From NCBI GenBank assembly GCA_016872915.1, contig VGYQ01000004.1, positions 1-64,000 on the forward strand: 64,000 nucleotides of DNA, read 5' to 3'. The DNA is from Planctomycetota bacterium (GTDB lineage: Bacteria; Planctomycetota; Phycisphaerae; Phycisphaerales; SM1A02). A model generated the notes under the pieces. The model worked only from the letters and a program-made list of their open reading frames with translations, ran no database searches and had not been told where the DNA came from. The position numbers and the translations under genes were made by a program. Of the stretch, positions 30,403 through 46,448 are shown in pieces. Position 1 is the first letter of the stretch; the number at the start of each line of letters is the position of its first letter.

Positions 30403-30403
30403 G

Positions 30404-31741
30404 TCAGCCCTCAAAGGCCGTCACGCACACGGTGTCGTTCTGTCCGCCAAAGCCAAATGAATTGGAGAGGCATGTGCGCACCACCGAGGCGCGTGGGGTG
30501 TTGGGCACGTAGTCGAGATCGCATTCCGGGTCGGGCGTCGAGTAGTTGATCGTTGGCGGCAGCATGCCTCGCTCGATCGCCATCACACAGGTGATGAACT
30601 CGACGGCACCGGCCGCCGCGATGAGATGACCCAACATGCTCTTGACCGAACTCATGGGCACTTCCCGCGCGAGATCACCGAAAACACGCTTCACCGCGAG
30701 GGTCTCGATCGAGTCATTTTCCTTGGTCCCCGTGCCGTGTGCGCTGATGTAGTGAACGAGCGGCCGCCCATCGCTGCCACGCGCATGCGGATCGATTCCC
30801 GCCTGCCCGAGAGCCTGCAGCATGGCGGCTGCCGCACCTCGCCCTTCCGGTTCGATGTCTGTGATTCGATAGGAATCAGCGCTGGATCCGAATCCAATCA
30901 CCTCGGCGAGCGGTTTCGCTCCACGGCGCCTGGCATGCTCGAGCGTTTCGAGAATGAGCATGCCGGCACCTTCGCCCATCACGAATCCACCGCGCGTCAT
31001 GTCGAAGGGACGACTGGCTTTGGTCGGGTCTGCAGTGCTCGTGCTGAGAGCGGTCAACCGATTGAACCCGGTCACACCGAGCACATGGATCATGGTGTGC
31101 GCTCCGCCGGCGATCATGACATCAGCCTCGCCGCCTCGAAGAATGCTGCAGGCCTCACCAATGGCCTGCGTGCTCGCAGCGCACGCCGTCAGACAGTTCG
31201 ATGTCGGCCCGCGCACATCGAACTCGCGCGCAATGTGCGCAAGCGGCATGTTCGGCTCCTGCTCGATCTCGCGCGCGGCCTGCAGCAGCGAGTGACCGAG
31301 CTTGGCCCATGCCGCGCCATCCGTGCGACCTTGCGCCCCATCCCACGAGCGAATGTTCGCGGCGAGATAGTTCATGGTGTCGATGACCCCCTCGCCCGCG
31401 CCGAGGTACATGCCCACGCGACGCGCGTTGGCAGGAGGTGTCTGGTGGAGTTGTGCCTGCCTCCACGCCTGCGCTGCCGCGCCAAGCGCAAACTGCGAGT
31501 TGATCCCAGCATTCTGATGCAGCGCGATATCGCGAACGAACGGCCGAACATCGAAGTCTTTCACTTCCGCCGCAAAGGTTGTCGGGAATGTGCGCGCATC
31601 GAAACGCGTGATGGGCGCCATGCCGCACGCGCCACGCATGAGTGCGGACCACACCGTTTCAAGATCATGCCCGAGCGGCGTGACCCACCCCATGCCAGTG
31701 ACGACCACCCGCTCCGCATCGCTTCGGTGCACGGCGCTCAT
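30404..31741 (-). CDS. beta-ketoacyl-ACP synthase (active subunit)
   Basis: 445-residue FabF-type condensing enzyme. The full catalytic triad is visible: Cys187 in LTACAAST, His335 in SAHGTGTKEND and His372 in SMLGHLIAAAG, plus Lys367. It overlaps the downstream end of a second, degenerate ketosynthase by 4 bases. This pairing is like KS-alpha with a chain-length factor in type II polyketide or aryl-polyene systems, though no acyl carrier protein or ketoreductase lies nearby. An ordinary fabF role cannot be excluded. Confidence 0.85.
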   Translation of the reverse strand: MSAVHRSDAERVVVTGMGWVTPLGHDLETVWSALMRGACGMAPITRFDARTFPTTFAAEVKDFDVRPFVRDIALHQNAGINSQFALGAAAQAWRQAQLHQTPPANARRVGMYLGAGEGVIDTMNYLAANIRSWDGAQGRTDGAAWAKLGHSLLQAAREIEQEPNMPLAHIAREFDVRGPTSNCLTACAASTQAIGEACSILRGGEADVMIAGGAHTMIHVLGVTGFNRLTALSTSTADPTKASRPFDMTRGGFVMGEGAGMLILETLEHARRRGAKPLAEVIGFGSSADSYRITDIEPEGRGAAAAMLQALGQAGIDPHARGSDGRPLVHYISAHGTGTKENDSIETLAVKRVFGDLAREVPMSSVKSMLGHLIAAAGAVEFITCVMAIERGMLPPTINYSTPDPECDLDYVPNTPRASVVRTCLSNSFGFGGQNDTVCVTAFEG

Positions 31742-33078
31742 GCGGTCCTCCCGAGGACCATGGCCGCACTCTGTCCGCCGAGTCCCGTGGTGGTGACGAC
31801 AATATGACGCAGCGTCGCATCGACGGCGCCGCGTGCATCCGCATCCACGCCAAGTTTCGCAGAGCCGCGGGTCGAAAGTCGTGCGGGCAAACGCTGATCA
31901 CGCAGACAGCGCGCTGCAACGCACGCCGCCAGTGCGCTCGTTCCCGCACCCACGATGCCGACCTGAGGCGCAACCGTCACGAGGGGAAGCGTCCCTGCAC
32001 GGGAACCAAAGATCTGCCGCACAGCATGCGCTTCCGCCGCATCCACGCATGCAATACCGCTGCCCATGGGCACCACCGCGTCCACTTGATCCGCAGGGAC
32101 GCCTGCCTGCTGCAGCGCACCCTCGACTGCAGCTGCGATGTCCTCGCCGGCATTGGCAAGATCGACACCCACCGTGTCTTCACAGCGACACTGCGTCGCC
32201 GCAAAGCCGCGGAGTTCTGCCCACGCCGTCGCGCCTCGCGACTTCGCGCTCTCCGCATTCTCCAAGATCAGCAGACCGCCTCCCTCGCCGAGTACGGTTC
32301 CATCGGCGGAGGGATCGAAGGGACGAACCGCTGCAGCACCATCGCCCCCCGCCGGCACTCGCGCCAGTCGCTGCGCGAAGGTCTGCCGCAGCAGGCCCAT
32401 GTAGTTCACCTTGCTCTCGGCGCCGCCCGAAAGACATGCATCCGCATCGCCCCGGCGAATCACGCGCATGCTTTCGCCGATCGAGAGCCCACCCGATGCC
32501 TCCGCACAGGTGATCGTGTTCGACGGACCCTGACAATCATGAATGATCGTGACATGGCATGCGAGCATGTTGGGCAGATACTTCAGCAGCCAGAGGGGCG
32601 TGAGGTTGTTCATGCCGGTGCGCCCCCACTCCCCACAGTCGAACGACCCGTCTGCGGTCTGGCAGGACTGCATGGCAGCGGCCAACTCGTCGGAGTCTGC
32701 AGGAATCAGACCGGCGCCGATCTGACATCCCACGCGCGCGGGCGGAATGGTCGGCGTCGCACCCTCCGCCGTGCCGCGAGTCACCAGACCAGCGGATTGG
32801 ACTGCGCTGGCGGCTGCCGCCACGGCGATTTCGATGTCGCGTGCCATCACCTTCGTCGCCTTGCGATAACTCTTGGGAACGATCGCTCGGATATCGAGTT
32901 GCTCGGGTGCGATCGTGGCCGCCACCGTGCTGCTGAACCCCGATGCGTTCCATGCCGTGATGGGTCGGATCGCCGTTGCACCGCTGCACAGACCATCCCA
33001 GAGCGCATCGATACCGATGCCGAAGCCCGACACCGGTCCGACACCGGTGATCAGCACGCGTCTGGAGGGGACTGACAT
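31738..33078 (-). CDS. degenerate ketosynthase (chain-length-factor-like)
   Basis: 446 residues with the thiolase fold of FabF. Cys191 is kept (NTITCAEASGG). The first catalytic histidine motif reads VVPMGSGIACVD instead of NAHGTGT, and the second reads VAPQVGIVGAG in place of KSMLGH, so both histidines and the lysine are lost. It is therefore unlikely to condense by itself and probably forms a heterodimer with the adjacent active enzyme. It starts at ATG 33078 with a TATCCT box 9 bases before it. Confidence 0.75.
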   Translation of the reverse strand: MSVPSRRVLITGVGPVSGFGIGIDALWDGLCSGATAIRPITAWNASGFSSTVAATIAPEQLDIRAIVPKSYRKATKVMARDIEIAVAAAASAVQSAGLVTRGTAEGATPTIPPARVGCQIGAGLIPADSDELAAAMQSCQTADGSFDCGEWGRTGMNNLTPLWLLKYLPNMLACHVTIIHDCQGPSNTITCAEASGGLSIGESMRVIRRGDADACLSGGAESKVNYMGLLRQTFAQRLARVPAGGDGAAAVRPFDPSADGTVLGEGGGLLILENAESAKSRGATAWAELRGFAATQCRCEDTVGVDLANAGEDIAAAVEGALQQAGVPADQVDAVVPMGSGIACVDAAEAHAVRQIFGSRAGTLPLVTVAPQVGIVGAGTSALAACVAARCLRDQRLPARLSTRGSAKLGVDADARGAVDATLRHIVVTTTGLGGQSAAMVLGRTA

Positions 33079-33087
33079 GGGCGGCGA

Positions 33088-33093
33088 AGGATA
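33088..33093 (-). promoter_or_regulatory. TATCCT -10 box, 9 nt before the degenerate ketosynthase
   Basis: TAnnnT hexamer 9 bases before ATG 33078; heads the ketosynthase transcription unit. Confidence 0.5.
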
Positions 33094-33114
33094 ACCGCGT
33101 CCGCGCACGCGCGT

Positions 33115-34467
33115 TCACATGCGGCGAGCAACGAGCAAAGCCATTTCGAGTGCCTGCTCGTAGTTCAGCCGCGGATCCAGCGCAGTCTGATAGGAACGAA
33201 GAAGATCGCCTCCGCCGAGTCCGCGCGCGCCGCCGGTGCACTCGGTGACATTGTCGCCCGTCATCTCAAAGTGAACGCCACCGAGGTTCGTTCCCTCGCG
33301 TCGATGCAGGTCGAAGGACTCCTCGAGTTCGCTGAGAATGTGTTCGAACGCGCGAGTCTTGACAGGCACTTGCTGCCCATCCGTACCTGCCACCGAAACA
33401 ATCTCCGTGTTGCCGTGCATGGGATCGCACACCCACAGCACCTTGCGCTTCGTCGCCGTCACCGCCCGCAGCAGCGGCGGCAACAACTCTCCGACGCGTC
33501 GCGCACCGAGTCGATGGATGAGCGTGAGCCGACCGGGCTCCAAGTGCGGATCGAGCCACTCGCAGAGCTTCGTCAACTGCTGTGGCGTCGTGTCCGGCGC
33601 AACCTTCACCGCGATCGGATTCGCGATGCCGCGCAGATACTCGACATGCGCCCCGTCCACCTGCGAGGTGCGTGCGCCCAACCACGGAAGGTGCGTCGAC
33701 AGATTCCAGACACCATCTCGGCGGGGAACTGCACGCGTGAGCGCGGACTCCAGTTCGAGCAGCAGGCACTCGTGGCTCGTAAAAAAGTCGACTCGCTGCA
33801 ACTGATGGATGCGAACGCCCGCGAGCGTTTCCATGAAGCGCAATCCTTCACCGATGGCATTGACCATCCGCTTGTATTCCGCGGCGCGCGGGGAGTGACC
33901 GACCCAATCCAGGTTCCACTGCTCGGGGTGGTGCAGATCCGCAAACCCACCGTCCACGAGCGCACGGATGAAGTTCAGGGTCATGGCTGAACGCGCATAG
34001 CCGCGCAGCAGCAGGCGCGGATCGGGGCGACGCGCTTCCGCGGTGAAGTCGGGGCGGTTGACGTTGTCGCCCCGGAACGAAGGCAACTGTGTGCCTCCGC
34101 GCGTCTCCATATCGCTCGAGCGCGGCTTTGCATATTGCCCGGCGAAACGCCCAACGCGAATGACGCGCTTGCGAGAGGCATGCGTCAGCACCAGGCTCAT
34201 CTGGAGCAGGATCTTCAGTTGACTTGCGATGTGCGAGGAATTGCAGCCGGAAAAACTTTCTGCACAGTCGCCCCCGTGCAGAAGGAACCGTTCTCCATCA
34301 GCAGCCTCGGCGAGTTGGGACTTGAGTCCTCCGATCTCGCCGCTCGTGACCAGAGGTGGCAGTCCCCGAATCTCCTCGAGGACACGGTCCAGTTCAGCAC
34401 GGTCCGGCCAGAGCACCTGTTGCTGCGCGGGACGCGCGCGCCACGAGTCGGGGTTCCAGTTGCTCAT
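33115..34467 (-). CDS. class II (plant-type) DAHP synthase
   Basis: 450 residues, normal for the class. It condenses PEP and erythrose-4-phosphate, the first step of the shikimate pathway. Motifs are GERFLLHGGDCAESF with the metal cysteine, RVGRFAGQYAKPRSS, GDNVNRPDF, VWVCDPMHGNT and GGVHFEMTGDNVTECTGG. Homology begins at MSNWNPDSWRARPAQQ (34467). It differs from E. coli AroF/G/H (class I). Confidence 0.95.
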   Translation of the reverse strand: MSNWNPDSWRARPAQQQVLWPDRAELDRVLEEIRGLPPLVTSGEIGGLKSQLAEAADGERFLLHGGDCAESFSGCNSSHIASQLKILLQMSLVLTHASRKRVIRVGRFAGQYAKPRSSDMETRGGTQLPSFRGDNVNRPDFTAEARRPDPRLLLRGYARSAMTLNFIRALVDGGFADLHHPEQWNLDWVGHSPRAAEYKRMVNAIGEGLRFMETLAGVRIHQLQRVDFFTSHECLLLELESALTRAVPRRDGVWNLSTHLPWLGARTSQVDGAHVEYLRGIANPIAVKVAPDTTPQQLTKLCEWLDPHLEPGRLTLIHRLGARRVGELLPPLLRAVTATKRKVLWVCDPMHGNTEIVSVAGTDGQQVPVKTRAFEHILSELEESFDLHRREGTNLGGVHFEMTGDNVTECTGGARGLGGGDLLRSYQTALDPRLNYEQALEMALLVARRM

Positions 34468-34475
34468 GCGGGGCA

Positions 34476-34481
34476 AGGCTA
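34476..34481 (-). promoter_or_regulatory. TAGCCT -10 box, 8 nt before DAHP synthase
   Basis: TAnnnT hexamer 8 bases before ATG 34467, just downstream of the tRNA-Leu gene on the same strand. Confidence 0.5.
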
Positions 34482-34492
34482 GCGCGGCACGA

Positions 34493-34574
<82 letters not shown>

Positions 34575-34604: not shown

Positions 34605-35288
34605 ATGGGATTTGCGCAAACCGCTGCCACGAGGGTGATGCCGCTGCTGACGCGTCTTCTGATTGTGGCGGTGCTGCTCCCCCTTGGTTGGCGACTCGCT
34701 TTTTCCAGCGTGCCATTCTCATCCGCAGAGTCCGCGCGACTGCAGGAACTGGGCGTGACAACAGCGGGCGTGGACCTCGGGAAGGTGCGTTCCACGCTCC
34801 CTGGCGGCAAAGATGCCTCCAACAATGCGCTTGCGACCGCGACCGCTGCAGGCGGGCCCATTCGTGAAGGACGGGCGCTCTATGGAATCTCGCTGACGGC
34901 GGACAGAGTTGGTCTGCCGGCGCCCGCGCTCGCTGGCTGGGTAACGGCGTTTCTCCTGTTGGTGGGCAGTGTCCTCATCGGCTTGGGTGCGTTCACACGG
35001 ATCACTGCCATGTTCATCGCACTCCTGAGCGCGACTGCATTCTGGGTGGACTGCCTCCCGGCGCTCCGCAGCGGCTACTGGTCGCTTGATGGCGCAGTGC
35101 TCGTGCATACGGGAGCACACCTTGCGCTCTTCATCTTGTGTGCGAACCTGCTGCTGCTTGGTGGCGGTGCGCTCAGTGTGGATGCACTCTTCGGCGGGAG
35201 TGCGCGTGGTTCCAAAGGGAAGGGCCATCCCGTGAGTGGTGGTGGACGCAAGTCGGGTGGCGATGGCCGCGCCGTGGAGAAGGAGTGA
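34605..35288 (+). CDS. DoxX-like membrane protein
   Basis: 227 residues with four predicted membrane helices: around 12-28, 106-123, 127-142 and 160-182. An extracytoplasmic loop lies between the first two, and a basic, glycine-rich tail ends the protein. The layout fits the DoxX/SURF4-like family, whose function is unclear. ATG 34605 is preferred over 34584 and 34596 because of the TACGAT box 7 bases before it. It ends 3 bases before the VWA gene and heads that operon. Confidence 0.6.
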   Translation: MGFAQTAATRVMPLLTRLLIVAVLLPLGWRLAFSSVPFSSAESARLQELGVTTAGVDLGKVRSTLPGGKDASNNALATATAAGGPIREGRALYGISLTADRVGLPAPALAGWVTAFLLLVGSVLIGLGAFTRITAMFIALLSATAFWVDCLPALRSGYWSLDGAVLVHTGAHLALFILCANLLLLGGGALSVDALFGGSARGSKGKGHPVSGGGRKSGGDGRAVEKE

Positions 35289-35291
35289 CGG

Positions 35292-36563
35292 ATGCGAGGG
35301 AGGACCGCCGTGTCGTGGGGCTTGTCCGCTGCGGCGCACGTGCTTTTGGCTCTCCTGTTGCTGTCGGCGGGCGTTGCACTGCTGCCCATGGGGCGCAATG
35401 AGACTGCACTGAGCGATGATGCCGTGTTCCTCTTTGAAAGTCCGCCTGCCGAGAAGTCCATCACGCAACCGCCCGCAGTCCAAGCGGCCGTTCTTCCTAC
35501 ACGCGAGTCGGCGGCAACCGCAGCGATCGCAGTGCAATCCGCCAGCGATACCGCAGCGCGCATGCAGTCCTCCGCGGAGTTGCAGCGCGACACGCTCACC
35601 ACAACGCTTCCCATGGTGGCGCGCCCACTGCAGACTCCATCCACGATGTTCGCCATGGCAGGCATTCGAATGCCCAGTGTTCGACGGGTGGTCTTTTTGC
35701 TCGACGCATCTGGTTCGATGATTGGCTGCTACCCCGCCGCAGTCGATGCGGTCATCGAGTCGATCGGCAGACTGAGCGATGAGCAGCAGTTCGCGGTCAT
35801 TCCGTTTCAGGCAGATGATGCGTTTCTCCCCGAAGGCGATGCGCTCCGTCGCGCAGGGGCGACGCTCGGGCAGCGTGGCCGAGATCAACTGAAGGCCTGG
35901 CTGAACGACAAGATCATCCCATCGGGCGGCAGTAACCCAACACGAGCGGTACGTGCCGCGCTCGCGCTCAAGCCAGATACGGTGGTGATCGTCAGCGCAG
36001 GGCTGCTCGGTGCAGGCGACACGACCCGCGATCGGGATGTGCTGCTCGCAGAACTCGATGCCCTGAATCCGCGGGATGCGCGCTCCGGTCGGCGCCCCGT
36101 GCTTTTCGCATGCATTCACTTGATGCAACAGGAACCGCTCGGCGCACTTGAACTCGTGGCACGCGAGCACGGCATGGCAGGTTCCTATCGATTTCTTCCA
36201 CGCTTGCAGGACTTGCGCGCGGCCGAGATTGCGTCGCCCGCCATCGACGATGAGTGGACGCGCGGTGTGGCCGCCGCAGTCGAACGCGCCCAGGCAGGCG
36301 ACAGAGCTGCTGCACGCGTCGCACTTTTGCGAATCGGACTCGCACACCCGCTGCACGAGGCATCGCCAGCGGCACTGCTCGCTGCTGCCGAGATTTCTCT
36401 CAACCATGACCACGACCCTCGCGCCGCACAGCGACTCGCCGCTGCGGCAGCGCAGGGAGCGCGTGCATTCGGACTCGGCGCGGTGCAGGAACGCGCCGAG
36501 GCGATTGCGCGCGACCCCAACGCACCCACATCGCCCGTACAGCCCACGGAAACAAACCCATGA
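35292..36563 (+). CDS. TonB/TolA-type anchored VWA-domain protein
   Basis: 423 residues. The N-terminal helix (WGLSAAAHVLLALLLL) carries Ser12 and His16 in the SxxxH arrangement that TonB (Ser16, His20) and TolA use to couple to ExbB/ExbD or TolQ/TolR. A Pro/Ala-rich spacer runs to about 120. A von Willebrand factor A domain follows at 130-300, with DASGS (138-142) and SGGSNPT (Thr217) as MIDAS elements. The third MIDAS aspartate appears replaced (VVIVSAGL). Residues 300-423 are helical and repeat-like. The next gene overlaps by ATGA. The whole VWA part should be periplasmic. Confidence 0.75.
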   Translation: MRGRTAVSWGLSAAAHVLLALLLLSAGVALLPMGRNETALSDDAVFLFESPPAEKSITQPPAVQAAVLPTRESAATAAIAVQSASDTAARMQSSAELQRDTLTTTLPMVARPLQTPSTMFAMAGIRMPSVRRVVFLLDASGSMIGCYPAAVDAVIESIGRLSDEQQFAVIPFQADDAFLPEGDALRRAGATLGQRGRDQLKAWLNDKIIPSGGSNPTRAVRAALALKPDTVVIVSAGLLGAGDTTRDRDVLLAELDALNPRDARSGRRPVLFACIHLMQQEPLGALELVAREHGMAGSYRFLPRLQDLRAAEIASPAIDDEWTRGVAAAVERAQAGDRAAARVALLRIGLAHPLHEASPAALLAAAEISLNHDHDPRAAQRLAAAAAQGARAFGLGAVQERAEAIARDPNAPTSPVQPTETNP

Positions 36564-37309
36564 TGCCAGCCCCTCTTTCGGCAGTGCTCCTCGCTCCACT
36601 CTCCCCCGATCCTTCCCCCATGCTTGCTCCCCCGCTGCTCGCCTCGCTCGATGCCGCCCGCATCTTCTTTTACTCCGCAAGCACCATGCCCGATGGCTCG
36701 GTACGGACGGAGTGGATCGGCAGCGCGATCATTTGGATTCTCATCGCCATGAGCCTGGTGAGTGTCGGCATGATCATCTCGGCCTCGCTCGCCCATCGGA
36801 TAGCGGCGATCGCGCCGCCACAGGCACTCGCGGGCATCGGCAGTGGAAGGGATGGACGTGCCGCACTCGATGGGGCTGCCGCGATGCCGTGTGATACTGG
36901 GCGAATCGCGCGCGCGGCTTCCGAAGCGTGGATGCGTGGCCGCAGCGAGATTGTCGATGCCGCCGAACGTGCTGCCGTGGAGTGCGCAGCACGTCGATTC
37001 CGAACACTTGAACCGCTGCACGTGCTCGCACAAATCAGCCCGATGGTCGGACTCTTTGGCACCGTCTACGGCATGATCGTTGCGTTTCAGGCAGTCGCTG
37101 CGTCGGGCGGGCAGGCGGATCCTGCGCTGCTCGCAGGCGGTATTGGCACCGCGCTCGTGACCACCTTCTGGGGACTCGTGGTCGCGGTTCCGGCCCTGCT
37201 CGCATACGCGCTGCTGCGCAATCGTGTGGACACAGCCCTCGCAAGCGCGCTTGAAAGCGTCCTGCACGCCGCGAAGGACGCGCCCGAAGCCGGGAGTGCT
37301 GCGCGGTGA
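36560..37309 (+). CDS. ExbB/TolQ/MotA-type proton channel
   Basis: 249 residues with three membrane helices (about 53-76, 150-175 and 195-215). The family core is QISPMVGLFGTVYGMIVAFQAVA and GGIGTALVTTFWGLVVAVPALLAY, containing the conserved pore threonines. With ExbD it forms the proton-driven motor of the inner membrane. Overlaps the genes on both sides by 4 bases (ATGA, then GTGA). Confidence 0.9.
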   Translation: MMPAPLSAVLLAPLSPDPSPMLAPPLLASLDAARIFFYSASTMPDGSVRTEWIGSAIIWILIAMSLVSVGMIISASLAHRIAAIAPPQALAGIGSGRDGRAALDGAAAMPCDTGRIARAASEAWMRGRSEIVDAAERAAVECAARRFRTLEPLHVLAQISPMVGLFGTVYGMIVAFQAVAASGGQADPALLAGGIGTALVTTFWGLVVAVPALLAYALLRNRVDTALASALESVLHAAKDAPEAGSAAR

Positions 37310-37767
37310 AACAAGCGCTCGCGCGCATCTCGGCGATCGATGCGGATCTCACGCCGCTGATCGATTTGGCGTTCCTGCTGATCGTCTTCTTCGTGCTCGT
37401 TGCGCGCATGAGCGGCGAGCAACTTCCCGCCATTCCGCTGCCAAAGCCAACCGATGTCGCGGCGACTCCCGCCGGCACTGCGCGTCGCCTCGCAGTCAAC
37501 GTGCTTTCGGAAGATGGCGCAGTCGTGTTCACGCTCGGAGGCGAGCGCTTTTTGGCTGATGGATCGGGGCTCGACCGCCTCGCATCGGCCATTGCACAGC
37601 GCCTGCGGAGTGATCCAAGCGTGCCCGTCGACATTCGCGCTGACCGGTCGCTCGCGTACCGCGCCGTCGAACCTGCCATCGATGCGATCACCGCTGCGGC
37701 GGCCAATGTCGGGACGCGGGTGACGATCCGCGTCTGCGCGCTGCAGGGGGAAGGCGGAGCACCGTGA
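37306..37767 (+). CDS. ExbD/TolR-type protein (first)
   Basis: 153 residues: a short cytoplasmic start, one membrane helix (PLIDLAFLLIVFFVLVARM) with the proton-carrying aspartate at its beginning, and a periplasmic domain. GTG start within the stop of the ExbB gene. The following gene is a second, diverged ExbD, so the motor may contain an ExbD heterodimer. Confidence 0.9.
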   Translation: MKQALARISAIDADLTPLIDLAFLLIVFFVLVARMSGEQLPAIPLPKPTDVAATPAGTARRLAVNVLSEDGAVVFTLGGERFLADGSGLDRLASAIAQRLRSDPSVPVDIRADRSLAYRAVEPAIDAITAAAANVGTRVTIRVCALQGEGGAP

Positions 37768-38237
37768 ACGTGGGCCGCACCGTCAGCGACACTCGCATTC
37801 GGCTGGCGATGACGCCGATGATTGACGTGGTGTTTCTCCTGTTGGTTTTCTTCGTTTGTACGGTGCGCTTCGAGCGAAACGAGGCGGTCTACACGTTGGA
37901 TCTGCCGCAGCGTGGTCTGACCGCAGATCCCCTTGCGCTGCAGCAGCGTGCGCTCGTCATCCGCGTTGGTACGCGTGCGGCCGATGCGGTCTCGATCGAA
38001 CTCCAGGCGGATGGGCTGCGTGAACGCCCTGCATCCTTCGATGCTTTGGCAGCTGCACTTACGCGCGTTCGGCGAGGGACTGCGCCCGAGCCAGCCAACA
38101 CCGGGCTCTTTCTGGCGGAGCATCCAGTGCTCATCGCCCCCACGAGGGAGTGCGGCTGGCAGGATGCCGTGGACGCGTTCAACGCAGCCGTACGCGCCGG
38201 ATTCCGCAACATTGGTTTCGCGCGGAGTGGCACATGA
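37764..38237 (+). CDS. ExbD/TolR-type protein (second)
   Basis: 157 residues with the same layout. MTPMIDVVFLLLVFFVCTV holds the essential aspartate, followed by a periplasmic domain with CGWQDAVDAFNAAVRAGF near the end. It overlaps its neighbours by 4 bases on each side (GTGA, ATGA), indicating tight translational coupling across the operon. Confidence 0.9.
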   Translation: MNVGRTVSDTRIRLAMTPMIDVVFLLLVFFVCTVRFERNEAVYTLDLPQRGLTADPLALQQRALVIRVGTRAADAVSIELQADGLRERPASFDALAAALTRVRRGTAPEPANTGLFLAEHPVLIAPTRECGWQDAVDAFNAAVRAGFRNIGFARSGT

Positions 38238-40900
38238 CAGCGTGGAGCCGACGCCGCACACCACCGCCGAGTGCGCTCGCCGCATTGGCTGCGTTCATGC
38301 TGATCGCATGCGCGGGAACAACCCGCGCCGTGGCGGCCGCTTTCTCGCAGTCCACGCTGACGGAGAGTGCAGCGCAGCGACTGGAGGAGGAGGACTTCCT
38401 CCGGGGCGTGGGCGATCTCGCACTGCTTCGTGCACTGGATGATCTCGATCGAACCGAGCCCATACGCGACCCGCAGTCGTTGGAAGCGGCTCTCCGGGCG
38501 ATTGCTCGCGAGCGGGCCTCGCTGCGCGACGATGCACTCTCACTCCCCGAACGGCTGCAAGCACTCGATCGGCTCCGAACGCTGCGCACAGCACTGGTGG
38601 CACGAGATACGCGCGATCCCTTCACGGTGCTGTGGATCAGTGATGCAGCAGAGGATGAACTTTCGCTGGCATTCTTCGGCGCGGATGGTGGTGCCGATGC
38701 GATCGCAGGCTCATCTGGATCTGCGCTCGTACCGAGGGCACGCGCTGCGCTCGACCGCGTGCTCATCCTGCTCGATACCGCCGACGCACGCGCCGCCTCC
38801 ATTTCACCGGAGAGCGTTCCCGCTGCATCGCCACTCGCGCAGCGACTCGACAGCGATGCGCGTGTACGCCGGCCTTTTCTCCGTGCTGCAGTCCGCGCCA
38901 TGTTGCTGGCTATCGAGCGGAGCGGCGAATCAGCGGCGGCGAGTCGGGAGCGACCTGCGAAGGGCGCCGCGCTCCTGCGTGAACTTTCCCTTCTGCGCCC
39001 ACAACTCCCCCCTCGCCTGCGCCCGGAGAGCGATCTGGCAGAAGTCGCTGCAGCTGCGGTGGCAGCACAGTGCGATGCCGCGCGGTACGCAGCCGCTCGA
39101 ATTATCCAGGCGCGTGATCCAACGCTGACTGTGCTCGCGCGCATTCTCAGTTGCGACTGCCTTTTGAACGAACGCCGCGGCGAGGAGGCAATCCGCCAAC
39201 TCATCGCCCTGCATGCCGTGCAGGGGCTCTCGACCCCGCTTCGGCTGCTCGTCGCAGATGCGATCGTGCGTGCGCGAGGAACACTTGGCAAGTCACCGAC
39301 CACGGAGCTGACGCTTCGTCCTTGGACCGACACGCTTGATCGCGCGCAGGCTGCGGAGCGTGCGGGTGTTCGACGCGCAGTACTCGAGCGCATCGCAGGT
39401 GCTGCACGCGGACAACCTGCCTACGGCGATCTTCCTCCTCTCGCGGAGGTCGCCCTCGCTCGCGAAGCACTGCTGGCGAATCCTGCAGACCGCGAAGCAC
39501 TCGCCCGCCTCGCGCCTCACGCCACCCAGACACGAAATGCCACCGCACAGGTCGCTGCTCTCGAAACAATTGCCGATGCCGTGGTGGCTGCGCGGATGTG
39601 GCCAGAAGCTGCCGATGCGTACCGCGCGCTCGCTCTCGCGGCGGCGCAGGAACCGGTCTCGCTCCCGGCGATGCAGGCGGCACTCGACATTGAACTCTCT
39701 CTCGACCGCGCAGACCCTGCCGGGCGGGAAGCGCAACTCGAGGAAGCGCTCGGCTTGGCGATCAACCGCTTCCCTGAACTGCCCACTCGGCCGGCATCGC
39801 TGGCACAACTGGAGGCGATCCAACTGCGCCGATTCCTTCAGCAGGCAATGGCTGCGACGCCCGAGACACGTCCCTCTTTGGCGCAGCAGGCTGCCGATGC
39901 TGCGCAGCGACTCACGGACCTCGACGCCGCCGCACGCCGCGCTGGACTCGATCCCGGCAGTCGGGTCAGTGCGACCGCCGAGATGGCTCGAACAGCCGCT
40001 GACTTCCTGGCAGCCGACGCCGTGCAGGCAACCCGCGCGAATGCTCTTCCTTCTCCTGAGCAGTGGGAATCCTGGAGCAAGTTTGATGCACAGCGCATCC
40101 TGCGCTTGCGTCTCGAGCGCGCCGCGATGCACTCGGCAGAACCGGCGCGAATCATGACGGCTGAACTCGCCCTTTTGCCCGACTCCATGCTCGATGCACA
40201 GACGCCCGCCGCACTGACTGCCATCACCAACTTCATGAGAAGGCAGGTCGAACTCGCGGGCGACGCCAATCTGCAAGGAAGTCCACGCTCCGTGCAGCAT
40301 GCTCAGCGCGCGCTCGCCGCGGGGCAGGCGTGGGAAGCACTCTTGGCCACCCGAGGCGGAGATGGATCAGCTCAACCGCTGACGGCTGCGTTCGATCGAC
40401 TCGCCGCAGATGCCGCTCTGCTCGCGCAAGACTGGGAGAACGCTCTCGCGCGCGCCGAGACCATTGCACTTGCCAATGCCCAGTCGGTCGACGATCAGCG
40501 TCGGCTGGTCGAAGCACTTTCACACGCCCACCAGGACGCCGTTCGGCTCGGGCTCAAGGATCTTCGCGATGAACGTCGCACGCGTGGCATGAACGCGGCG
40601 CGCGCACTGGAGGCGATGGCACCCGATGGCTCACCCGCCTGGTGGCTGGCGCAGAGCGTTCAACTGCGGATTGCCGAGGAATCTGGCCGAGGGGGCGACC
40701 CAGTCCTTGCTTCCATCGCTCGACTGCGCGCGGCGGATCCTGCGCTTGGGGGCCCGCTCATGAGTGCGGCCATTCTGGAGACCGAAAGCGCTGCCATGGC
40801 AAGTGCCGCGCGCATGAGGCAGCACGCTTCGACCCCAGGCGCAGCACACGACGGTGAGTCGACCGCGTCACCCGCCGCCGTGCGACCAGTCAATCGCTGA
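38234..40900 (+). CDS. large helical lipoprotein of the ExbB/ExbD operon
   Basis: 888 residues, no recognised family. A signal peptide ends in the lipobox LIAC, and the residue after the lipidated cysteine is Ala, not Asp, which favours the outer membrane. The rest is almost entirely Ala/Leu/Arg-rich helix. Stretches such as MWPEAADAYRALALAAAQ resemble TPR units, so an alpha-solenoid is likely. It could be the outer-membrane partner of the VWA protein, comparable in position to Pal in Tol-Pal, but no peptidoglycan-binding motif is seen. The stop region overlaps the convergent gene by 11 bases. Confidence 0.6.
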   Translation: MTAWSRRRTPPPSALAALAAFMLIACAGTTRAVAAAFSQSTLTESAAQRLEEEDFLRGVGDLALLRALDDLDRTEPIRDPQSLEAALRAIARERASLRDDALSLPERLQALDRLRTLRTALVARDTRDPFTVLWISDAAEDELSLAFFGADGGADAIAGSSGSALVPRARAALDRVLILLDTADARAASISPESVPAASPLAQRLDSDARVRRPFLRAAVRAMLLAIERSGESAAASRERPAKGAALLRELSLLRPQLPPRLRPESDLAEVAAAAVAAQCDAARYAAARIIQARDPTLTVLARILSCDCLLNERRGEEAIRQLIALHAVQGLSTPLRLLVADAIVRARGTLGKSPTTELTLRPWTDTLDRAQAAERAGVRRAVLERIAGAARGQPAYGDLPPLAEVALAREALLANPADREALARLAPHATQTRNATAQVAALETIADAVVAARMWPEAADAYRALALAAAQEPVSLPAMQAALDIELSLDRADPAGREAQLEEALGLAINRFPELPTRPASLAQLEAIQLRRFLQQAMAATPETRPSLAQQAADAAQRLTDLDAAARRAGLDPGSRVSATAEMARTAADFLAADAVQATRANALPSPEQWESWSKFDAQRILRLRLERAAMHSAEPARIMTAELALLPDSMLDAQTPAALTAITNFMRRQVELAGDANLQGSPRSVQHAQRALAAGQAWEALLATRGGDGSAQPLTAAFDRLAADAALLAQDWENALARAETIALANAQSVDDQRRLVEALSHAHQDAVRLGLKDLRDERRTRGMNAARALEAMAPDGSPAWWLAQSVQLRIAEESGRGGDPVLASIARLRAADPALGGPLMSAAILETESAAMASAARMRQHASTPGAAHDGESTASPAAVRPVNR

Positions 40901-41612
40901 TCTGCCGCAGCTCATCTCGCAGGATCGATGCGAGCGCGAAGTTCTCGCGGCGCACCGCATCGCGTAGGCGCTGCTCAAGATCAGCGCGCTGACTCGATGG
41001 CAGTTTTGGAATGAATGCATCACGCAGCGCGCGGAGCATCGCGACCTCCGTCGGAAGAGCATCGTGCTCCTGCTGCAGTCGCTGCATGCTCCCGAGCGCT
41101 TGATCGATCGCCGCGAGTGCTCCTTGCGTATCGCCCCGACGCGCACAACCGGTTGCTTGCGCACGGGCTTGCAGGAGGATCGCCGCAAAGCGAACCGACT
41201 GCAGCGGTGCAGGGTCGATCTCCGGCAGCGCGTTCTCGACGAGCCACTGCATCGCCGAAGCGTTGCGAGCGCAGTCCGCCGACGCACGATCGAAGGCTCC
41301 GAGCAGGAACCAGGCACTCGCCCTCTGATGAAAGAGCTGCGCCTCCTCGCGCATGGCATCGGCCGCATGCGGTCCTACCTGCCCCCCCTTCGACCGAGTC
41401 GCGTCCCAAACCGAGTCGAACCCATGCGGGCGCCCGCCATCTGGGCGGCCCACCCCCTCAAACTGCAGCAAACCAGCCTCCAGTCGAACTTGAAGCCGTT
41501 CCAGGCCATCCGCCCCCACAAATAGCCGGGCCCGCGGCCCCTCCCCTTGCCATGGCCACCGCGTGAGGATTTCACGAATATCGTCGGAGGGGTTGCCTTC
41601 CGGACCAATCAT
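40890..41612 (-). CDS. UVR-motif protein of unknown function
   Basis: 240 residues. The C-terminus (QRLRDAVRRENFALASILRDELRQI) is a clear UVR motif of the kind found in UvrB, UvrC, McsA and ClpC. The middle is helical and TPR-like. ATG 41612 (MIGPEGNPSDDIRE) is chosen because TACTAT lies exactly 7 bases before it; the frame extends upstream without support. It is divergent from the sigma factor gene. It could be an adaptor for a Clp or McsB-type system, but there is no direct evidence. Confidence 0.65.
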   Translation of the reverse strand: MIGPEGNPSDDIREILTRWPWQGEGPRARLFVGADGLERLQVRLEAGLLQFEGVGRPDGGRPHGFDSVWDATRSKGGQVGPHAADAMREEAQLFHQRASAWFLLGAFDRASADCARNASAMQWLVENALPEIDPAPLQSVRFAAILLQARAQATGCARRGDTQGALAAIDQALGSMQRLQQEHDALPTEVAMLRALRDAFIPKLPSSQRADLEQRLRDAVRRENFALASILRDELRQISD

Positions 41613-41619
41613 GGGCAAA

Positions 41620-41625
41620 ATAGTA
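41620..41625 (-). promoter_or_regulatory. TACTAT -10 box, 7 nt before the UVR-motif gene
   Basis: TAnnnT with the modal 7-base spacing to ATG 41612. Confidence 0.5.
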
Positions 41626-41693
41626 AGTCCCGACGGAGAGAGTCGCCAGCGGCGTGTTGGCGAAGATCGGAGCATCGCAGCGAAGAGGTGTGC

Positions 41694-42710
41694 GTGGCGA
41701 AGTCAGAAGTGCAGACAGAGATGCAGATGTATGTGCGTGAGATCAGTCACGTCGCGCTGCTCACCGCGCAAGAAGAGCGCACACTTGGCTGGAGCATCAT
41801 CAACGACAGTTGTCCACAGGCGAAGGAGCGCCTCATCACCGCGAACCTTCGACTCGTGATCGCCATCGCGAAGGGCTATCTCAACCGCGGCATCGCACTC
41901 CCCGACTTGATCGAGGAGGGAAATGTCGGACTCATTCGTGCTGTCGAGGGGTTCGATCCCGCGCAAGGCGCGCGATTCTCCACCTATGCATCGTGGTGGA
42001 TCAAGCAGGCGATCAAGCGCACGCTCATCAATGCATCGCAGCCCATTCACATTCCTGCGTACATGGTCGAACTGATCGGTCGGTGCAAGTCCGTGTCGAA
42101 GTCGCTCGAGGAGAAACTCGGCCATCCGCCCACCATGTCGGAACTTGCCAAAGAGATGCAAGTGCCGCTGACGAAGCTGCATGTCATTCGGCGTGCGCTT
42201 CGAGCATTCAACACCCCCAATCAGGTCACGGTGACGGGCGCCGATGGGGAAGTCACATCGGCGAGCGATCTCTTCGAGGACACAACAACAAAGAATCCGA
42301 CGAAAGCCGCGGAAGATGATGAAATTCTCCGCGTTATTGTCACGTTGCTCGATGCGATTGACCGCCGCGAAGCGGAAGTGCTTCGGCTGCGCTTCGGCCT
42401 CGATGGCACTGAACCGCTCACACTGAGCGAGGTGGGACAGCGGGTCGGACTGACGCGGGAACGTGTTCGTCAGATCGAGGTCGAAGTCCTTGGTCGGCTT
42501 GGTCGCCAACTCGGCAGCAACCAGTCGCTGTCGCTGCTGTTCAAGAACACGGCGCAAACGACGACACGAAGTCCTCAGCGGCCGTCTGGCTCAAGTGCCG
42601 GATCCCAGCAGCGACCACAGGTGCCATCCATCCCCGACTTGCTGTCGAATAAACCGGTCCACGGAAGCAACCGCGGCACGCCCTCCGTGCCGCCGCACCA
42701 CAGACCCTAA
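41694..42710 (+). CDS. sigma-70 family RNA polymerase sigma factor
   Basis: 338 residues. Regions 1.2 (MQMYVREISHVALLTAQEE), 2.1-2.4 (ANLRLVIAIAKGYLNRG, DLIEEGNVGLIRAVEGFD, FSTYASWWIKQAIKRTL), 3 and 4 (RLRFGLDGTEPLTLSEVG, TRERVRQIEVEVLGRL) are all present. Region 1.1 is absent. It is either the primary factor in a short form or a group 2 (RpoS/SigB-like) factor. The last 55 residues form a low-complexity Ser/Pro/Gln tail not typical of the family. GTG 41694 has GAGG upstream. The longer frame to 41547 overlaps the divergent gene. Confidence 0.85.
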   Translation: MAKSEVQTEMQMYVREISHVALLTAQEERTLGWSIINDSCPQAKERLITANLRLVIAIAKGYLNRGIALPDLIEEGNVGLIRAVEGFDPAQGARFSTYASWWIKQAIKRTLINASQPIHIPAYMVELIGRCKSVSKSLEEKLGHPPTMSELAKEMQVPLTKLHVIRRALRAFNTPNQVTVTGADGEVTSASDLFEDTTTKNPTKAAEDDEILRVIVTLLDAIDRREAEVLRLRFGLDGTEPLTLSEVGQRVGLTRERVRQIEVEVLGRLGRQLGSNQSLSLLFKNTAQTTTRSPQRPSGSSAGSQQRPQVPSIPDLLSNKPVHGSNRGTPSVPPHHRP

Positions 42711-42737
42711 GTCTGCAGCGGACCCCTGCCACGGACA

Positions 42738-43862
42738 TCAAGTCTTTCGGTAGAACGGCAGTGGCTCCACACGCGCCGCGACCGTTGTGCCGCGCAAATC
42801 CACTTCGACCTCGCTGCCAACCTCGGCGAGCGCGGCATCGACAAAGGCCATCGCGATGGGGCGATCCAAACTCGGCGAAAGGCAGCCACTGGTCACGCGA
42901 CCAACAACCGTGCCCCCGCGTCGCACTTCCATGCCTTGCCGCGCGCTCCGACGCCCCTCCAACCCAAGTCCCACCAGCTTTCGCTTGGGTCCATCGCGGG
43001 AAATGCGCTGCAGAGCCTCCTGACCGATGAAGCTTCCCGCACGCTCGTCGTCGATCCCCTTCTCAAGTTTCACGGCAAATCCAAGCCCAGCCGAGATCGG
43101 GTCGGTCTGCTCATCGATCTCATGTCCGTACAGCGGCATGCCCGCCTCCATGCGCAGCGTGTCACGCGCGCCAAGCCCCACGGGCTTGATGATGCTGGAC
43201 CCCTCCTTCGCGTCCTTCAGAAACATGCCAAGTGCCATTCGAGCCATGGCGCTCCCAAGAATCACCTCCACACCGTCCTCGCCCGTGTAGCCCGTACGGC
43301 TCACGATCATCTTGACCACGATCAAGCTCTTTTGCACGAAGCGATAGCGCTTCAACTTCGGAATCTCGCTCGACAGCGTGCTGATGACATCCATTGCCTT
43401 TGGGCCTTGCAGCGCAACCATCGCGGTGGATTCCGTCTGGTCCTCGAGCTTGAACGCCATGTCACCCTTCACGGCCGCGAAGTGAGCGAGCAGCTTGGCT
43501 CGGTTCGAAGCGTTGCACACCATCAGGTATTCCGCCTCATCGAAGCAGGAGATGATCACATCATCGAGACAGCCGCCCTGATCGTTGCACACGAGCCCGT
43601 AGCGACACTGTCCCACTTCCATGCCGAGTACTTGCCGCGTACAGACGTGATCAAGGAACTTGCGCGCATGCCGACCCGAGAAGCGCAGCCTGCCCATGTG
43701 CGAGACATCGAAGAACCCCGCCGCGGTACGGCAATGTCGATGCTCCTCGATGATCGACGAGTACAGCAGCGGCATCTCCCAGCCGGCAAAATCAACCATC
43801 TTGCCACCGTGCTCGAGATGGAACGAATGAAGCGCTGTGCGCTGCAGTGAGGCGGTCGTCAT
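42738..43862 (-). CDS. gcvT: aminomethyltransferase (glycine cleavage T protein)
   Basis: 374 residues, slightly longer than E. coli GcvT. It moves the methylene group of the aminomethyl-lipoyl H protein to tetrahydrofolate. Motifs are VDFAGWEMPLLYSS, FFDVSHMGR, ALQGPKA, SRTGYTGEDGVEV and LRMEAGMPLYGHEID, with the folate-site residues in place. The gcvH and gcvP genes are not in the window. It starts 7 bases after a TAGGCT box and is divergent from bamA. No glycine riboswitch fits in the space upstream. Confidence 0.95.
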   Translation of the reverse strand: MTTASLQRTALHSFHLEHGGKMVDFAGWEMPLLYSSIIEEHRHCRTAAGFFDVSHMGRLRFSGRHARKFLDHVCTRQVLGMEVGQCRYGLVCNDQGGCLDDVIISCFDEAEYLMVCNASNRAKLLAHFAAVKGDMAFKLEDQTESTAMVALQGPKAMDVISTLSSEIPKLKRYRFVQKSLIVVKMIVSRTGYTGEDGVEVILGSAMARMALGMFLKDAKEGSSIIKPVGLGARDTLRMEAGMPLYGHEIDEQTDPISAGLGFAVKLEKGIDDERAGSFIGQEALQRISRDGPKRKLVGLGLEGRRSARQGMEVRRGGTVVGRVTSGCLSPSLDRPIAMAFVDAALAEVGSEVEVDLRGTTVAARVEPLPFYRKT

Positions 43863-43869
43863 GGCAGAA

Positions 43870-43875
43870 AGCCTA
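43870..43875 (-). promoter_or_regulatory. TAGGCT -10 box, 7 nt before gcvT
   Basis: TAnnnT hexamer 7 bases before ATG 43862. Confidence 0.5.
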
Positions 43876-43953
43876 GCGTCCGGCGGCGAGCGGCGCGTTC
43901 ACATATCCCTGCCAATGTCGCACAAATCCGCGGACGACAGCATCGGTCATGGG

Positions 43954-43959
43954 TAGCCT
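43954..43959 (+). promoter_or_regulatory. TAGCCT -10 box, 8 nt before bamA
   Basis: TAnnnT hexamer 8 bases before ATG 43968. The box-to-start sequence closely resembles that of gcvT on the other strand. Confidence 0.5.
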
Positions 43960-43967
43960 TTGCTGCC

Positions 43968-46448
43968 ATGAGGGCGTGGCGCCATGCTCGGATTCAAACG
44001 GCACTCTGGGCGGTCTGCGCAGCGGTGTGGATCGCGGCTTTCCCGTCCATCGCCGAATCGCCCGAACCGCGCACGCGCGCCACTCTCACGATCGATGACG
44101 AATCGCTCACGGACCGCCCCGTCACGGAAGTCGTCCTGCAGGGGCTCAACCGCGTCACCGAGCAGGAGATTCGAAACAACATGCGGGTGGCGGCTGGTCA
44201 GCCCTTCGACGCATCGGCCGTCAAGGACGACATCGCCACGCTTTACCGCCTGGGCCATTTTGATGCCGTCAGCGCAGACGCGGAGCTGCTGGATGATGGC
44301 ACGGTGCGTGTTCGCTACATCCTTGTTGAACAGCCGATCGTCCGCGACATTCAGGTCGTCGGCAACAAGGTGGTCTCGGACCAAGAACTGCGCGGCGTGA
44401 TCTCCCTTTATCCAGGCGGTCCACGTGATGACTTTCTGCTGGAGCGCGCCGTTGAAAAGATTCGCAATCTCTATCGAAGCAAGGGTAACTATCTCGTCGA
44501 CGTCGAAGTCGATGAGTCGCGTCTTCTGGAAACTGGCATTCTCATCTTCCGAATCGTGGAAGGACCGCGTGTTCGAATCCGCGAGATCGTGTTCTCAGGC
44601 AACCAGCGTTTCGACACCAATCAACTGGGTGCACAGATCAAGACGAAACCATGGGTCTTCATCTTCTCGATGGGCAACCTCGACGAGAACCAATTGATCG
44701 ACGATGTGGCAGCACTCGACAAGTTTTACAAAGACCGTGGTTTCATCGATGTGCGCGTCGATAAGCGAGTCGAAATCTCCGACAACGGCAAGGAGGCCAA
44801 AGTGGTGTTCCTCATCGCCGAGGGACGCCAGTATCGACTGCGGTCCGTGTCCATTGAAGCCGCGGACGGTACGCCGGAGGGGAAGCCACGCGTCATTCAA
44901 GCGGAGCAGTTGCTGGGTCTGATGACGATCCGACCCGGCGATGCGTTCACGGAAGACAAGTTGGAGAGTTCGGTCGAAGCACTGAAACGTGCTTACGAAG
45001 TCATGGGACATGTCGATGCTCGCGTCGAGCAGACATGGATTCGCATTGGCGAAGAACCAGAAGTCGACATGGTGGTCTCCGTACGCGAGGCAACGGCCGT
45101 ACGAGCGGGACTTGTTCGCATCCAAGGGAACTACCTCACCAAGGACAATGTCGTCCGGCGCGCGCTGCGCATCCAGCCGGGTCGACCACTGGATGGTCTT
45201 GAAGTCGAGAGTGCCAAGATCCGCCTTGAGGAAACGGGGCTCTTCAGTTCGGCCACCGTGACACCTCAGGTCCCCGCTGCAGACGCACCTGACCCCACCA
45301 CTCGCGACGTCCTCGTGGAGGTCAAGGAGCGGAACACGGGCAGCGTCAACTTCGGCGTTGGGATTGGTACGGACACGGGCTTCTTCGGCACCGTTTCGTT
45401 GAACCAGCGCAACTTCGATATCGCAGACACGCCGCAAACGCTCGATGAACTACTCAACGGGCGCGCATTCCGCGGTGCCGGGCAATCATTCTCACTGGCC
45501 ATTGCTCCAGGTATTGATGTCTCGAACTACTCGATCAGTTTTGGCGAACCGCATCTGCTTGACTCGGACATCGGCTTTGGCACGGACCTGCTCTACCGCC
45601 AACGTGTCTATGTCGGCTTCAACGAAGACCGCATCGCGGGGTCCTTCGCGCTTTCACGGCGGTTTGGCGAAATGTGGGTCGGATCTCTTCGCACCACACT
45701 GCAATCCGTGACACTGTCCAACTTTGCCCCCTCGACTCCTGTCGTGGTGTATGAACAGCGCGGTCCTGCCTTCATCAATTCCGTTGGTGTGTCGATGGCT
45801 CGAACAAACGTCGACAATCTGCAGCGTCCAACTCGCGGCACGCGATTCGAGGCGGATGTGGCTTACTTCGGATTATTCGGAGGCCCCTATCAATTTCCAC
45901 TGACCGCTGCGAGTTGGACAACGTGGCTGCCGCTCGCGGAAGACTTTTTCGGTCGAAAGAGCGTGCTGAGACTGAACACCAGCACGGGCTACCTTTACAA
46001 CAGCAGTGCTCCTGTCTCCGAGCGCTTTTACCTTGGAGGTCGCTCCCTTCGCGGCTTTGTGTTCCGCTCCGTGAGCCCGCTCGCCCGGGAGGCAATTGGA
46101 GCTGATCCGCCGACCATTACGTCGGTCTATCCGACCACAACGACCGGTACTGTGGAGGGGCTACCCAACGGCGATCCGATCGGTGGCATCTTTCGTTTCT
46201 TTGCCGGAGCGCAGTATGAGGTTCCTGTCTTCGACAAGTTTGTCACCGCCGTTGCGTTCTGCGACAGTGGAACGGCCACGGACAGTCTGACGCTGAACCC
46301 CTACCGTGTTTCCGTCGGTGGCGGCTTGCGGCTCTATATCCCGCAGCTCGGGCAAGCCCCACTCGCCTTCGATTTTGCCGTGCCCATCGTGAAGTACGTC
46401 ACCGATCAGACGGAAGTCTTCAGTTTCACAGCCGAACTGCCCTTCTGA
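43968..46448 (+). CDS. bamA: outer-membrane protein assembly factor BamA
   Basis: 826 residues. A signal peptide (cut near AFPSIAES) is followed by several POTRA domains. Their starts show the usual pattern of beta-strand, helix and gain in EI/ELR...GQPF (VLQGLNRVTEQEIRNNMRV at about 43-61, then VVGNKVVSDQELRG, FSGNQRFDTNQLGAQ, and so on to about 400). The C-terminal half is the Omp85 beta barrel, with SERFYLGGRSLRGF as the typical substrate-gate motif. It ends in Phe (FTAELPF), the normal outer-membrane signature. It inserts barrel proteins into the outer membrane. skp and lpx genes follow. Confidence 0.96.
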   Translation: MRAWRHARIQTALWAVCAAVWIAAFPSIAESPEPRTRATLTIDDESLTDRPVTEVVLQGLNRVTEQEIRNNMRVAAGQPFDASAVKDDIATLYRLGHFDAVSADAELLDDGTVRVRYILVEQPIVRDIQVVGNKVVSDQELRGVISLYPGGPRDDFLLERAVEKIRNLYRSKGNYLVDVEVDESRLLETGILIFRIVEGPRVRIREIVFSGNQRFDTNQLGAQIKTKPWVFIFSMGNLDENQLIDDVAALDKFYKDRGFIDVRVDKRVEISDNGKEAKVVFLIAEGRQYRLRSVSIEAADGTPEGKPRVIQAEQLLGLMTIRPGDAFTEDKLESSVEALKRAYEVMGHVDARVEQTWIRIGEEPEVDMVVSVREATAVRAGLVRIQGNYLTKDNVVRRALRIQPGRPLDGLEVESAKIRLEETGLFSSATVTPQVPAADAPDPTTRDVLVEVKERNTGSVNFGVGIGTDTGFFGTVSLNQRNFDIADTPQTLDELLNGRAFRGAGQSFSLAIAPGIDVSNYSISFGEPHLLDSDIGFGTDLLYRQRVYVGFNEDRIAGSFALSRRFGEMWVGSLRTTLQSVTLSNFAPSTPVVVYEQRGPAFINSVGVSMARTNVDNLQRPTRGTRFEADVAYFGLFGGPYQFPLTAASWTTWLPLAEDFFGRKSVLRLNTSTGYLYNSSAPVSERFYLGGRSLRGFVFRSVSPLAREAIGADPPTITSVYPTTTTGTVEGLPNGDPIGGIFRFFAGAQYEVPVFDKFVTAVAFCDSGTATDSLTLNPYRVSVGGGLRLYIPQLGQAPLAFDFAVPIVKYVTDQTEVFSFTAELPF

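Follow-up and report, generated by a model that had tools for sequence, protein, structure and literature searches.

What would a protein with a von Willebrand factor A (VWA) domain do in an operon that otherwise encodes an ExbB/ExbD motor? The question is raised by a planctomycete contig of the order Phycisphaerales (assembly GCA_016872915.1, contig VGYQ01000004.1), whose first 64,000 nucleotides, here called the window, we analysed. Translation of the reading frames at 34605-40900 gives six genes on the forward strand, which encode in order a DoxX-like protein, a VWA protein, an ExbB, two ExbDs and a large protein. An initial annotation had proposed a proton-driven Ton/Tol-like device that pulls on a periplasmic or outer-membrane partner through a contact at the metal ion-dependent adhesion site (MIDAS) of the VWA domain. 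Judging from sequence and predicted structures, we put at roughly 0.78 the probability that the operon encodes a Ton/Tol-like motor driven by protons, together with a side-docked transducer that bears a VWA domain. The linkage to motor genes, an invariant Ser/His pair, conserved motor residues and published models (PMC12204202) argue for the transducer, and the MIDAS contact has become doubtful.

The transducer helix and its putative docking motif

The AlphaFold2 model of the VWA protein (mean predicted local distance difference test score, pLDDT, 81) places Ser12 and His16, which form an SxxxH motif, inside a helix at residues 2-29. We compared it with the best 80 of 167 relatives from one search pattern; since these are related planctomycetes, they are not an even sample. 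Both residues are invariant in an alignment of 43 rows (the window and 42 of the 80 VWA references), and SxxxH lies in a predicted membrane helix in 79 of the 80 loci, the exception (L160) being cut at the contig start. The Ser12/His16 helix singled out by the initial annotation is thus conserved among homologues. For an order-level set, 61 genomes (own, genus, family and order) were searched for the VWA protein, with a match in 57; 56 loci were fetched from 55 of these, and the weakest of the 57 matches, in G028, is the type-II VWA protein of that genome (see below). The two sets partly share contigs (for example L081 and L021). Among the 62 order-level VWA frames three contig-cut fragments (L039, L063 and L068) were set aside; the 59 counted all reach the helix, with the His in 59 and the Ser in 56.

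As controls we took 26 further VWA targets, drawn from 11 of the 25 genomes searched; 24 were readable, several of them orthologues of one another, and two gave no readable frame. SxxxH in a membrane-like helix was found in none of the 24; 16 have such a helix and eight have none. One control (L189) has the SxxxH letters, but in a non-membrane stretch. Fisher's test (79/79 against 0/24) gives p = 6e-24, a value that overstates independence because the rows are related. With the motif in such a helix in 79 of 80 relatives and 0 of 24 controls, a chance SxxxH was rejected.

None of the 43 rows has an Asp or Glu in the helix, which therefore does not resemble a pore helix. Beyond it, a linker (residues ~30-119) has low pLDDT at ~31-72 and 101-119 and one helix at 74-105. 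Just past the membrane helix lie a conserved A-x-F and a Pro, a candidate for the motor box that the disordered linker of vWA force transducers carries (PMC12204202); AlphaFold2 predicts no strand here. Four weak VWA matches also have SxxxH (L166, L167, L170 and L176), three of them with ExbB in the locus; the contig of L170 ends ~1 kb past its match. Twelve other weak matches in eleven loci (L161-L165, L168, L169 and L171-L174) have neither SxxxH nor ExbB. A TonB protein that scored weakly against the VWA model (L180) was excluded from this count.

Motor subunits

The window ExbB could be aligned to the solved structures of TolQ and ExbB. Across 79 rows (the window and 78 relatives), Ser65 is present in all and Trp59 in 78, and Thr168, Thr202 and Pro211 are each present in 77, the other two rows being gapped. 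The helix Asp of the first ExbD aligns with the solved ExbD 7ajq in a weak match (E 0.058); for the second ExbD, a search of solved structures gave nothing up to E 0.1. By pattern, the helix Asp was recognised in 73 of 75 and 61 of 72 ExbDs of the relatives, the pattern being unmatched in the remainder. Both the channel Thr pair of ExbB and the helix Asp of ExbD expected of a proton motor are therefore present. According to a review (PMC12905483), the Ser and His of the SHLS motif interact with transmembrane helix 1 (TM1) of ExbB/TolQ, in a network that joins a conserved TM1 Ser and Trp and a TM3 Pro; Ser65 and Trp59 of the window ExbB are putative counterparts of this TM1 pair.

The window's genome (G000) has four MotA_ExbB genes in total. 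At L177 (G000:C26:20000-28749) a weak MotA_ExbB gene is preceded by one for a 1039-aa protein and followed by two for 281-aa proteins with an N-terminal hydrophobic stretch (by eye); the 1039-aa protein and one 281-aa protein have no Pfam match.

Linkage of the VWA gene to the motor

Translation and Pfam bear out the gene set first described (a DoxX-like gene, an SxxxH-VWA gene, ExbB and two ExbDs), and its overlaps of 4 bases from the VWA gene onward were found at each of the four junctions. The DoxX-like and VWA genes are 3 bases apart (Table 1). NCBIfam gave no match over cut-off for any of the six proteins.

ExbB lies downstream of the VWA gene in 75 of the 80 loci and two or more ExbDs in 72; an ExbB match anywhere in the locus was found in 78. 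The position rule leaves five loci without ExbB: L093, L121 and L127 end 1, 1131 and 2535 bases past the VWA gene, respectively, and L112 and L142 are without explanation. By family, ExbB was found in 32/33 order-level loci of f1, 1/6 of f2, 1/1 of f3, 0/6 of f4, 5/6 of f5 and 4/4 of f6, in total 43/56. The proposed linkage to exbB and exbD therefore stands in most loci and fails in f4 and most of f2. The motor-less loci (L056, L057 and L073-L076 of f4; L058, L062-L064 and L069 of f2) keep SxxxH in all copies that have the helix; L063 is fragmentary, and the contig of L073 ends 1.3 kb past the VWA gene. The 24 control loci, scored for ExbB, first-type ExbD and DoxX only, had none of the three. 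We conclude that this kind of VWA arm has been kept throughout one planctomycete order, in many loci with a DoxX-like gene next to it.

Across the phylum, the VWA model matched in 120 of 148 genomes, many of these matches surely being other VWA proteins. In 20 loci hand-picked from this search table, SxxxH was found in 19 and ExbB directly downstream in 10, and L204 has an ExbB ~7 kb away. Four of the 20 (L207, L211, L214 and L219), from other planctomycetes, group in a single tree clade (100/98) as an SxxxH-VWA subgroup, and their fetched stretches gave no motor gene. Two tandem VWA genes precede ExbB in L059, L060 and L065 (f5) and in L067, L070 and L071 (f6).

Table 1. Features of the operon, by position in the window
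Feature	Position	Strand	Evidence
DoxX-like inner-membrane protein, 227 aa	34605..35288	+	Pfam DoxX 27.5 bits, cut-off 23.6
Predicted VWA force transducer, 423 aa	35292..36563	+	Pfam VWA_3 38.1 bits, cut-off 27
SxxxH codons, Ser12-His16, putative docking motif	35325..35339	+	Invariant Ser/His, 43/43 rows
Candidate motor box AVFLFESPP, residues 44-52	35421..35447	+	A44 38/43, F46 35/43, P52 38/43
DxSxS motif, residues 138-142	35703..35717	+	D138, S140, S142 43/43
ExbB/TolQ-type motor subunit, 249 aa	36560..37309	+	Pfam MotA_ExbB 90.3 bits, cut-off 22.9
First ExbD/TolR-type subunit, 153 aa, Asp20 in membrane helix	37306..37767	+	Pfam ExbD 50.4 bits, cut-off 25.4
Second ExbD/TolR-type subunit, 157 aa, Asp21 in membrane helix	37764..38237	+	Pfam ExbD 58.4 bits, cut-off 25.4
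Large secreted all-helical solenoid (TPR-like; TPR, tetratricopeptide repeat), 888 aa	38234..40900	+	AlphaFold2, Foldseek; no Pfam match over cut-off

The operon is flanked on the minus strand (29743-34500) by two ketoacyl-synthase-like genes and a DAHP-synthase-like gene, and beyond its end (40890-46448) by genes for a UVR-motif-like protein, a sigma factor, and gcvT-like and BamA-like products, all named by eye. Rfam found three tRNAs only in the window.

The VWA domain and its putative metal site

The VWA domain occupies residues ~120-304 of the transducer (Pfam VWA_3, AlphaFold2), and Foldseek matches it to VWA/I domains. Only VWA models match up to E 1 in Pfam, which upholds the earlier view that this domain takes the place of a TonB or TolA C-terminal domain. 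It is followed at ~321-407 by a helical C-terminal domain found in genus rows only (10 of the 30 rows of an alignment of the window and 29 VWA references).

A canonical MIDAS consists of DxSxS, then a Thr, then an Asp. DxSxS (D138, S140 and S142) is kept in all 43 rows; in the second motif Ser214 replaces the usual Thr, again in 43/43, and in the third an Asp is found at its usual position, 236, in 3/43 and at the next, 237, in 7/43. The site is therefore not a canonical MIDAS, and the VWA/MIDAS contact proposed at the outset is doubtful. A metal-dependent contact through the VWA domain is possible, without the backing that a complete MIDAS would give.

The DoxX-like gene

The first protein scores above the Pfam gathering score for DoxX and is assigned to that family. 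We favour its start at ATG 34605 over GTG 34584 because relatives (e.g. L024) start at the same point, by eye. In 78 of the 80 loci a DoxX gene precedes the VWA gene at a distance of no more than 1.5 kb, and the two misses (L106 and L160) begin at a contig edge. The order-level counts differ from family to family (30/33 in f1, 2/6 in f2, 1/1 in f3, 6/6 in f4, 0/6 in f5 and 0/4 in f6; in total 39/56), and none of the 20 phylum-level loci has DoxX. It is therefore a partner in part of the order. No link of DoxX to this class of system was found in the main text of PMC12204202 or in the literature searched.

The last gene

AlphaFold2 models the 888-aa protein from helices only (mean pLDDT 88), and Foldseek matches it to helical-repeat proteins with TM-scores of 0.1-0.25. 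Pfam gave it no match above cut-off, TPR included; of six downstream relatives, three (L041, L044 and L059) match TPR models over cut-off, two weakly (L049 and L051) and one not at all (L040). The initial annotation had called it a large lipoprotein. This label was not supported and we rejected it: a lipobox-like motif was found in 4 of 60 relatives (27 of which we aligned with the window), and the closest relative has Pro in place of the Cys, which is not conserved. The protein is therefore best named a secreted α-solenoid.

Some loci have a further gene between VWA and ExbB (L041:4618-5637 and L044:4588-5769), whose product of 340-400 aa begins, judged by eye, with a signal-like stretch. A comparable protein follows VWA in f4 (L056:6850-8052 and L057:6955-8019), three of the four have weak TPR-like matches, and the window's genus has no room for such a gene.

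A second operon and the Ton/Tol inventory

The window's genome has a second, paralogous operon (L176, G000:C8:1-8000). Its products are an SxxxH-VWA protein, a protein of 384 aa whose start looks signal-like by eye, an ExbB, two ExbDs and, truncated where the contig stops, a large protein; no DoxX turned up in this locus. We call its VWA protein type II; the reference used (L176:4179-5360) starts too early, upstream of where the protein probably begins, and its first ~51 residues overlap a neighbour on the opposite strand. All 19 of the 19 genus genomes match this protein strongly (E 1.3e-90 or better), 60 of 61 relatives show at least some match to it, and MotA_ExbB lies within 3 kb of the match in at least 37 of the 60 (tables compared by eye). 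In a tree of 49 rows the window-type VWA proteins form one clade (100/99) apart from the four type-II rows (93/86). In f2 and f4, both VWA arms might draw on the motor that the second operon encodes.

The window-type VWA gene is present in all 19 genus genomes, and TonB_C over cut-off and Plug occur together in the same 10. Neither was detected in the window's genome, which is 90.6% complete, nor in G001, G003, G013 and G018, which are 92-95% complete; G002 has a TonB_C match below cut-off and no Plug. OmpA-family matches were found in 61/61 genomes. Matches to PD40 were too numerous and too general for interpretation.

A possible mode of action

We propose that an ExbB pentamer and a hetero-pair of ExbDs, a stoichiometry borrowed from known motors, would form an inner-membrane proton motor. 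The N-terminal helix of the transducer would dock on ExbB through Ser12 and His16, as TonB and TolA do, and the flexible linker of ~90 residues would carry the VWA domain into the periplasm. Proton flow would then move the transducer, whose VWA domain may engage a periplasmic or outer-membrane partner. The operon's α-solenoid is the leading candidate for this partner or its adaptor, and the DoxX-like membrane protein may be an accessory in part of the order. A bolder version, which we hold only tentatively, would make this a house-keeping envelope motor of the Phycisphaerales: DoxX would be a real subunit, the VWA head with its non-canonical metal site would act on the periplasmic α-solenoid and not on TonB receptors, and many genomes would have two paralogous VWA arms, those of f2 and f4 maybe sharing one motor.

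Several observations weigh against a motor-driven VWA arm as described here. The VWA genes of f4 and of most f2 loci have no adjacent motor (one f4 contig ends soon after the gene), three VWA copies of f6 have AxxxH, and the phylum-level locus L220 is without the motif. Within the 43 rows the Leu of SHLS (+11) is present in 12 and its last Ser (+15) in one; the window helix has Leu23 and, at the last-Ser position, Gly27, and thus not the full SHLS. The part assigned to the solenoid is less certain, gene adjacency alone pointing to it as the VWA partner.

Alternative explanations

That the VWA arm replaces TonB in powering TonB-dependent receptors we regard as very improbable. The use of the TonB docking motif and the lack of a detectable TonB_C in the window's genome would suit this idea, but the Plug domain of the receptors is likewise undetected there, and since VWA is found in 19/19 genus genomes and TonB_C with Plug in 10, a TonB-like nutrient role is unlikely; the system is probably independent of TonB-dependent uptake. 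An arm in place of TolA, which would tether or constrict the outer membrane as Tol-Pal does while the solenoid acts as TolB or CpoB, is easier to entertain, though still unlikely. The window's genome having no TonB_C match, the OmpA-family proteins in every genome and the retention of the VWA gene in most order genomes searched are in keeping with it, as is the lack of any TonB_2 match in 19/19 genus genomes; that model, however, also misses its E. coli control, so that the absence of TolA is not established. Moreover, Pfam finds no Pal or TolB among the operon proteins, and any of the three further MotA_ExbB genes in the genome could serve Tol.

Many VWA domains serve as adaptors or in assembly. 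The one here could likewise act in regulation or assembly, docking on the motor without transmitting force; this would agree with the non-canonical MIDAS and with the lack of an adjacent motor for the VWA genes in f4 and in most of f2. We think this improbable: the TonB/TolA-like topology (helix, flexible linker, globular end), the invariant Ser/His and the acid-free helix fit a side-docked transducer. We likewise give little credence to a machine for gliding or surface adhesion along the lines of Myxococcus Agl-Glt. The latter has a matching motor make-up (AglR with AglQ/AglS, TPR proteins and GltG; PMC3169522), and a gliding role has also been proposed in PMC12204202. The likeness is one of composition, in a comparison that did not include Glt homologues, and the Myxococcus VWA protein CglB is, going by the title of a reference, a surface adhesin and not a transducer. 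Section 8 of PMC12204202 credits AglZ with a vWA fold; the title of the paper it cites concerns CglB.

The Ton/Tol-like motor with a VWA arm, our preferred reading, backs by a conservation test and a control set the recent proposal of a third proton-driven force arm beside TonB and TolA. The role of this arm is narrowed by its retention in genomes where neither TonB nor a receptor with a plug domain is detectable. With its invariant His and compact operon, the system would lend itself to a direct genetic test in a cultivable planctomycete.

Comparison with known systems

With TonB-ExbB-ExbD and TolA-TolQ-TolR the operon shares the motor families, the channel Thr and Asp, SxxxH and the topology of the arm. 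Unlike them, it has an arm without a TonB or TolA C-terminal domain and two different ExbDs, and its family does not keep the Leu and second Ser of SHLS. In Agl-Glt of Myxococcus xanthus, AglR acts with AglQ and AglS beside TPR proteins and GltG, which has a TonB-like motif (PMC3169522). One ExbB with two ExbDs (AglRQS) and the TPR proteins are thus held in common, whereas GltG has a TonB-like C-terminal match where the window transducer has VWA. The TPH-vWA family likewise combines a membrane-tethered VWA protein with a TolQ-like partner; its helix is a pore helix in which an Asp is conserved, and ExbD is missing (PMC12204202). Membership in this family was rejected, with no D or E in the helix of any of the 43 rows and two ExbD genes present.

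The closest counterpart comes from Williams-Jones et al. 2025 (PMC12204202), who described vWA force transducers that are tethered to the membrane and encoded next to TolQ, a TPR protein and two TolRs that differ from each other. These transducers occur in the Planctomycetes-Verrucomicrobia-Chlamydiae (PVC) group, Planctomycetes being named, and many but not all carry SHLS; AlphaFold3 models dock the transducer helix on the motor. The class itself is therefore not new, and in the literature searched for a VWA-bearing transducer this was the sole pertinent item found. Absent from that literature are the upstream DoxX, the paralogous second operon and the distribution of VWA against TonB and Plug. 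The window operon fits this class as judged on features, the family-defining sequences of Tichowtungia standing outside the comparison. Shared are the helix with its docking Ser/His, a predicted flexible linker, the VWA end, ExbB/TolQ, two ExbD/TolR and a TPR-like gene beside the motor, the last by virtue of the solenoid fold, TPR Pfam matches being found in relatives only. The gene order differs, the VWA gene of PMC12204202 often lying downstream of the TPR and motor genes and that of the window ahead of the motor with the solenoid last. The window operon differs further in its upstream DoxX and, in the window's genus, in the extra helical C-terminal domain of the VWA protein.

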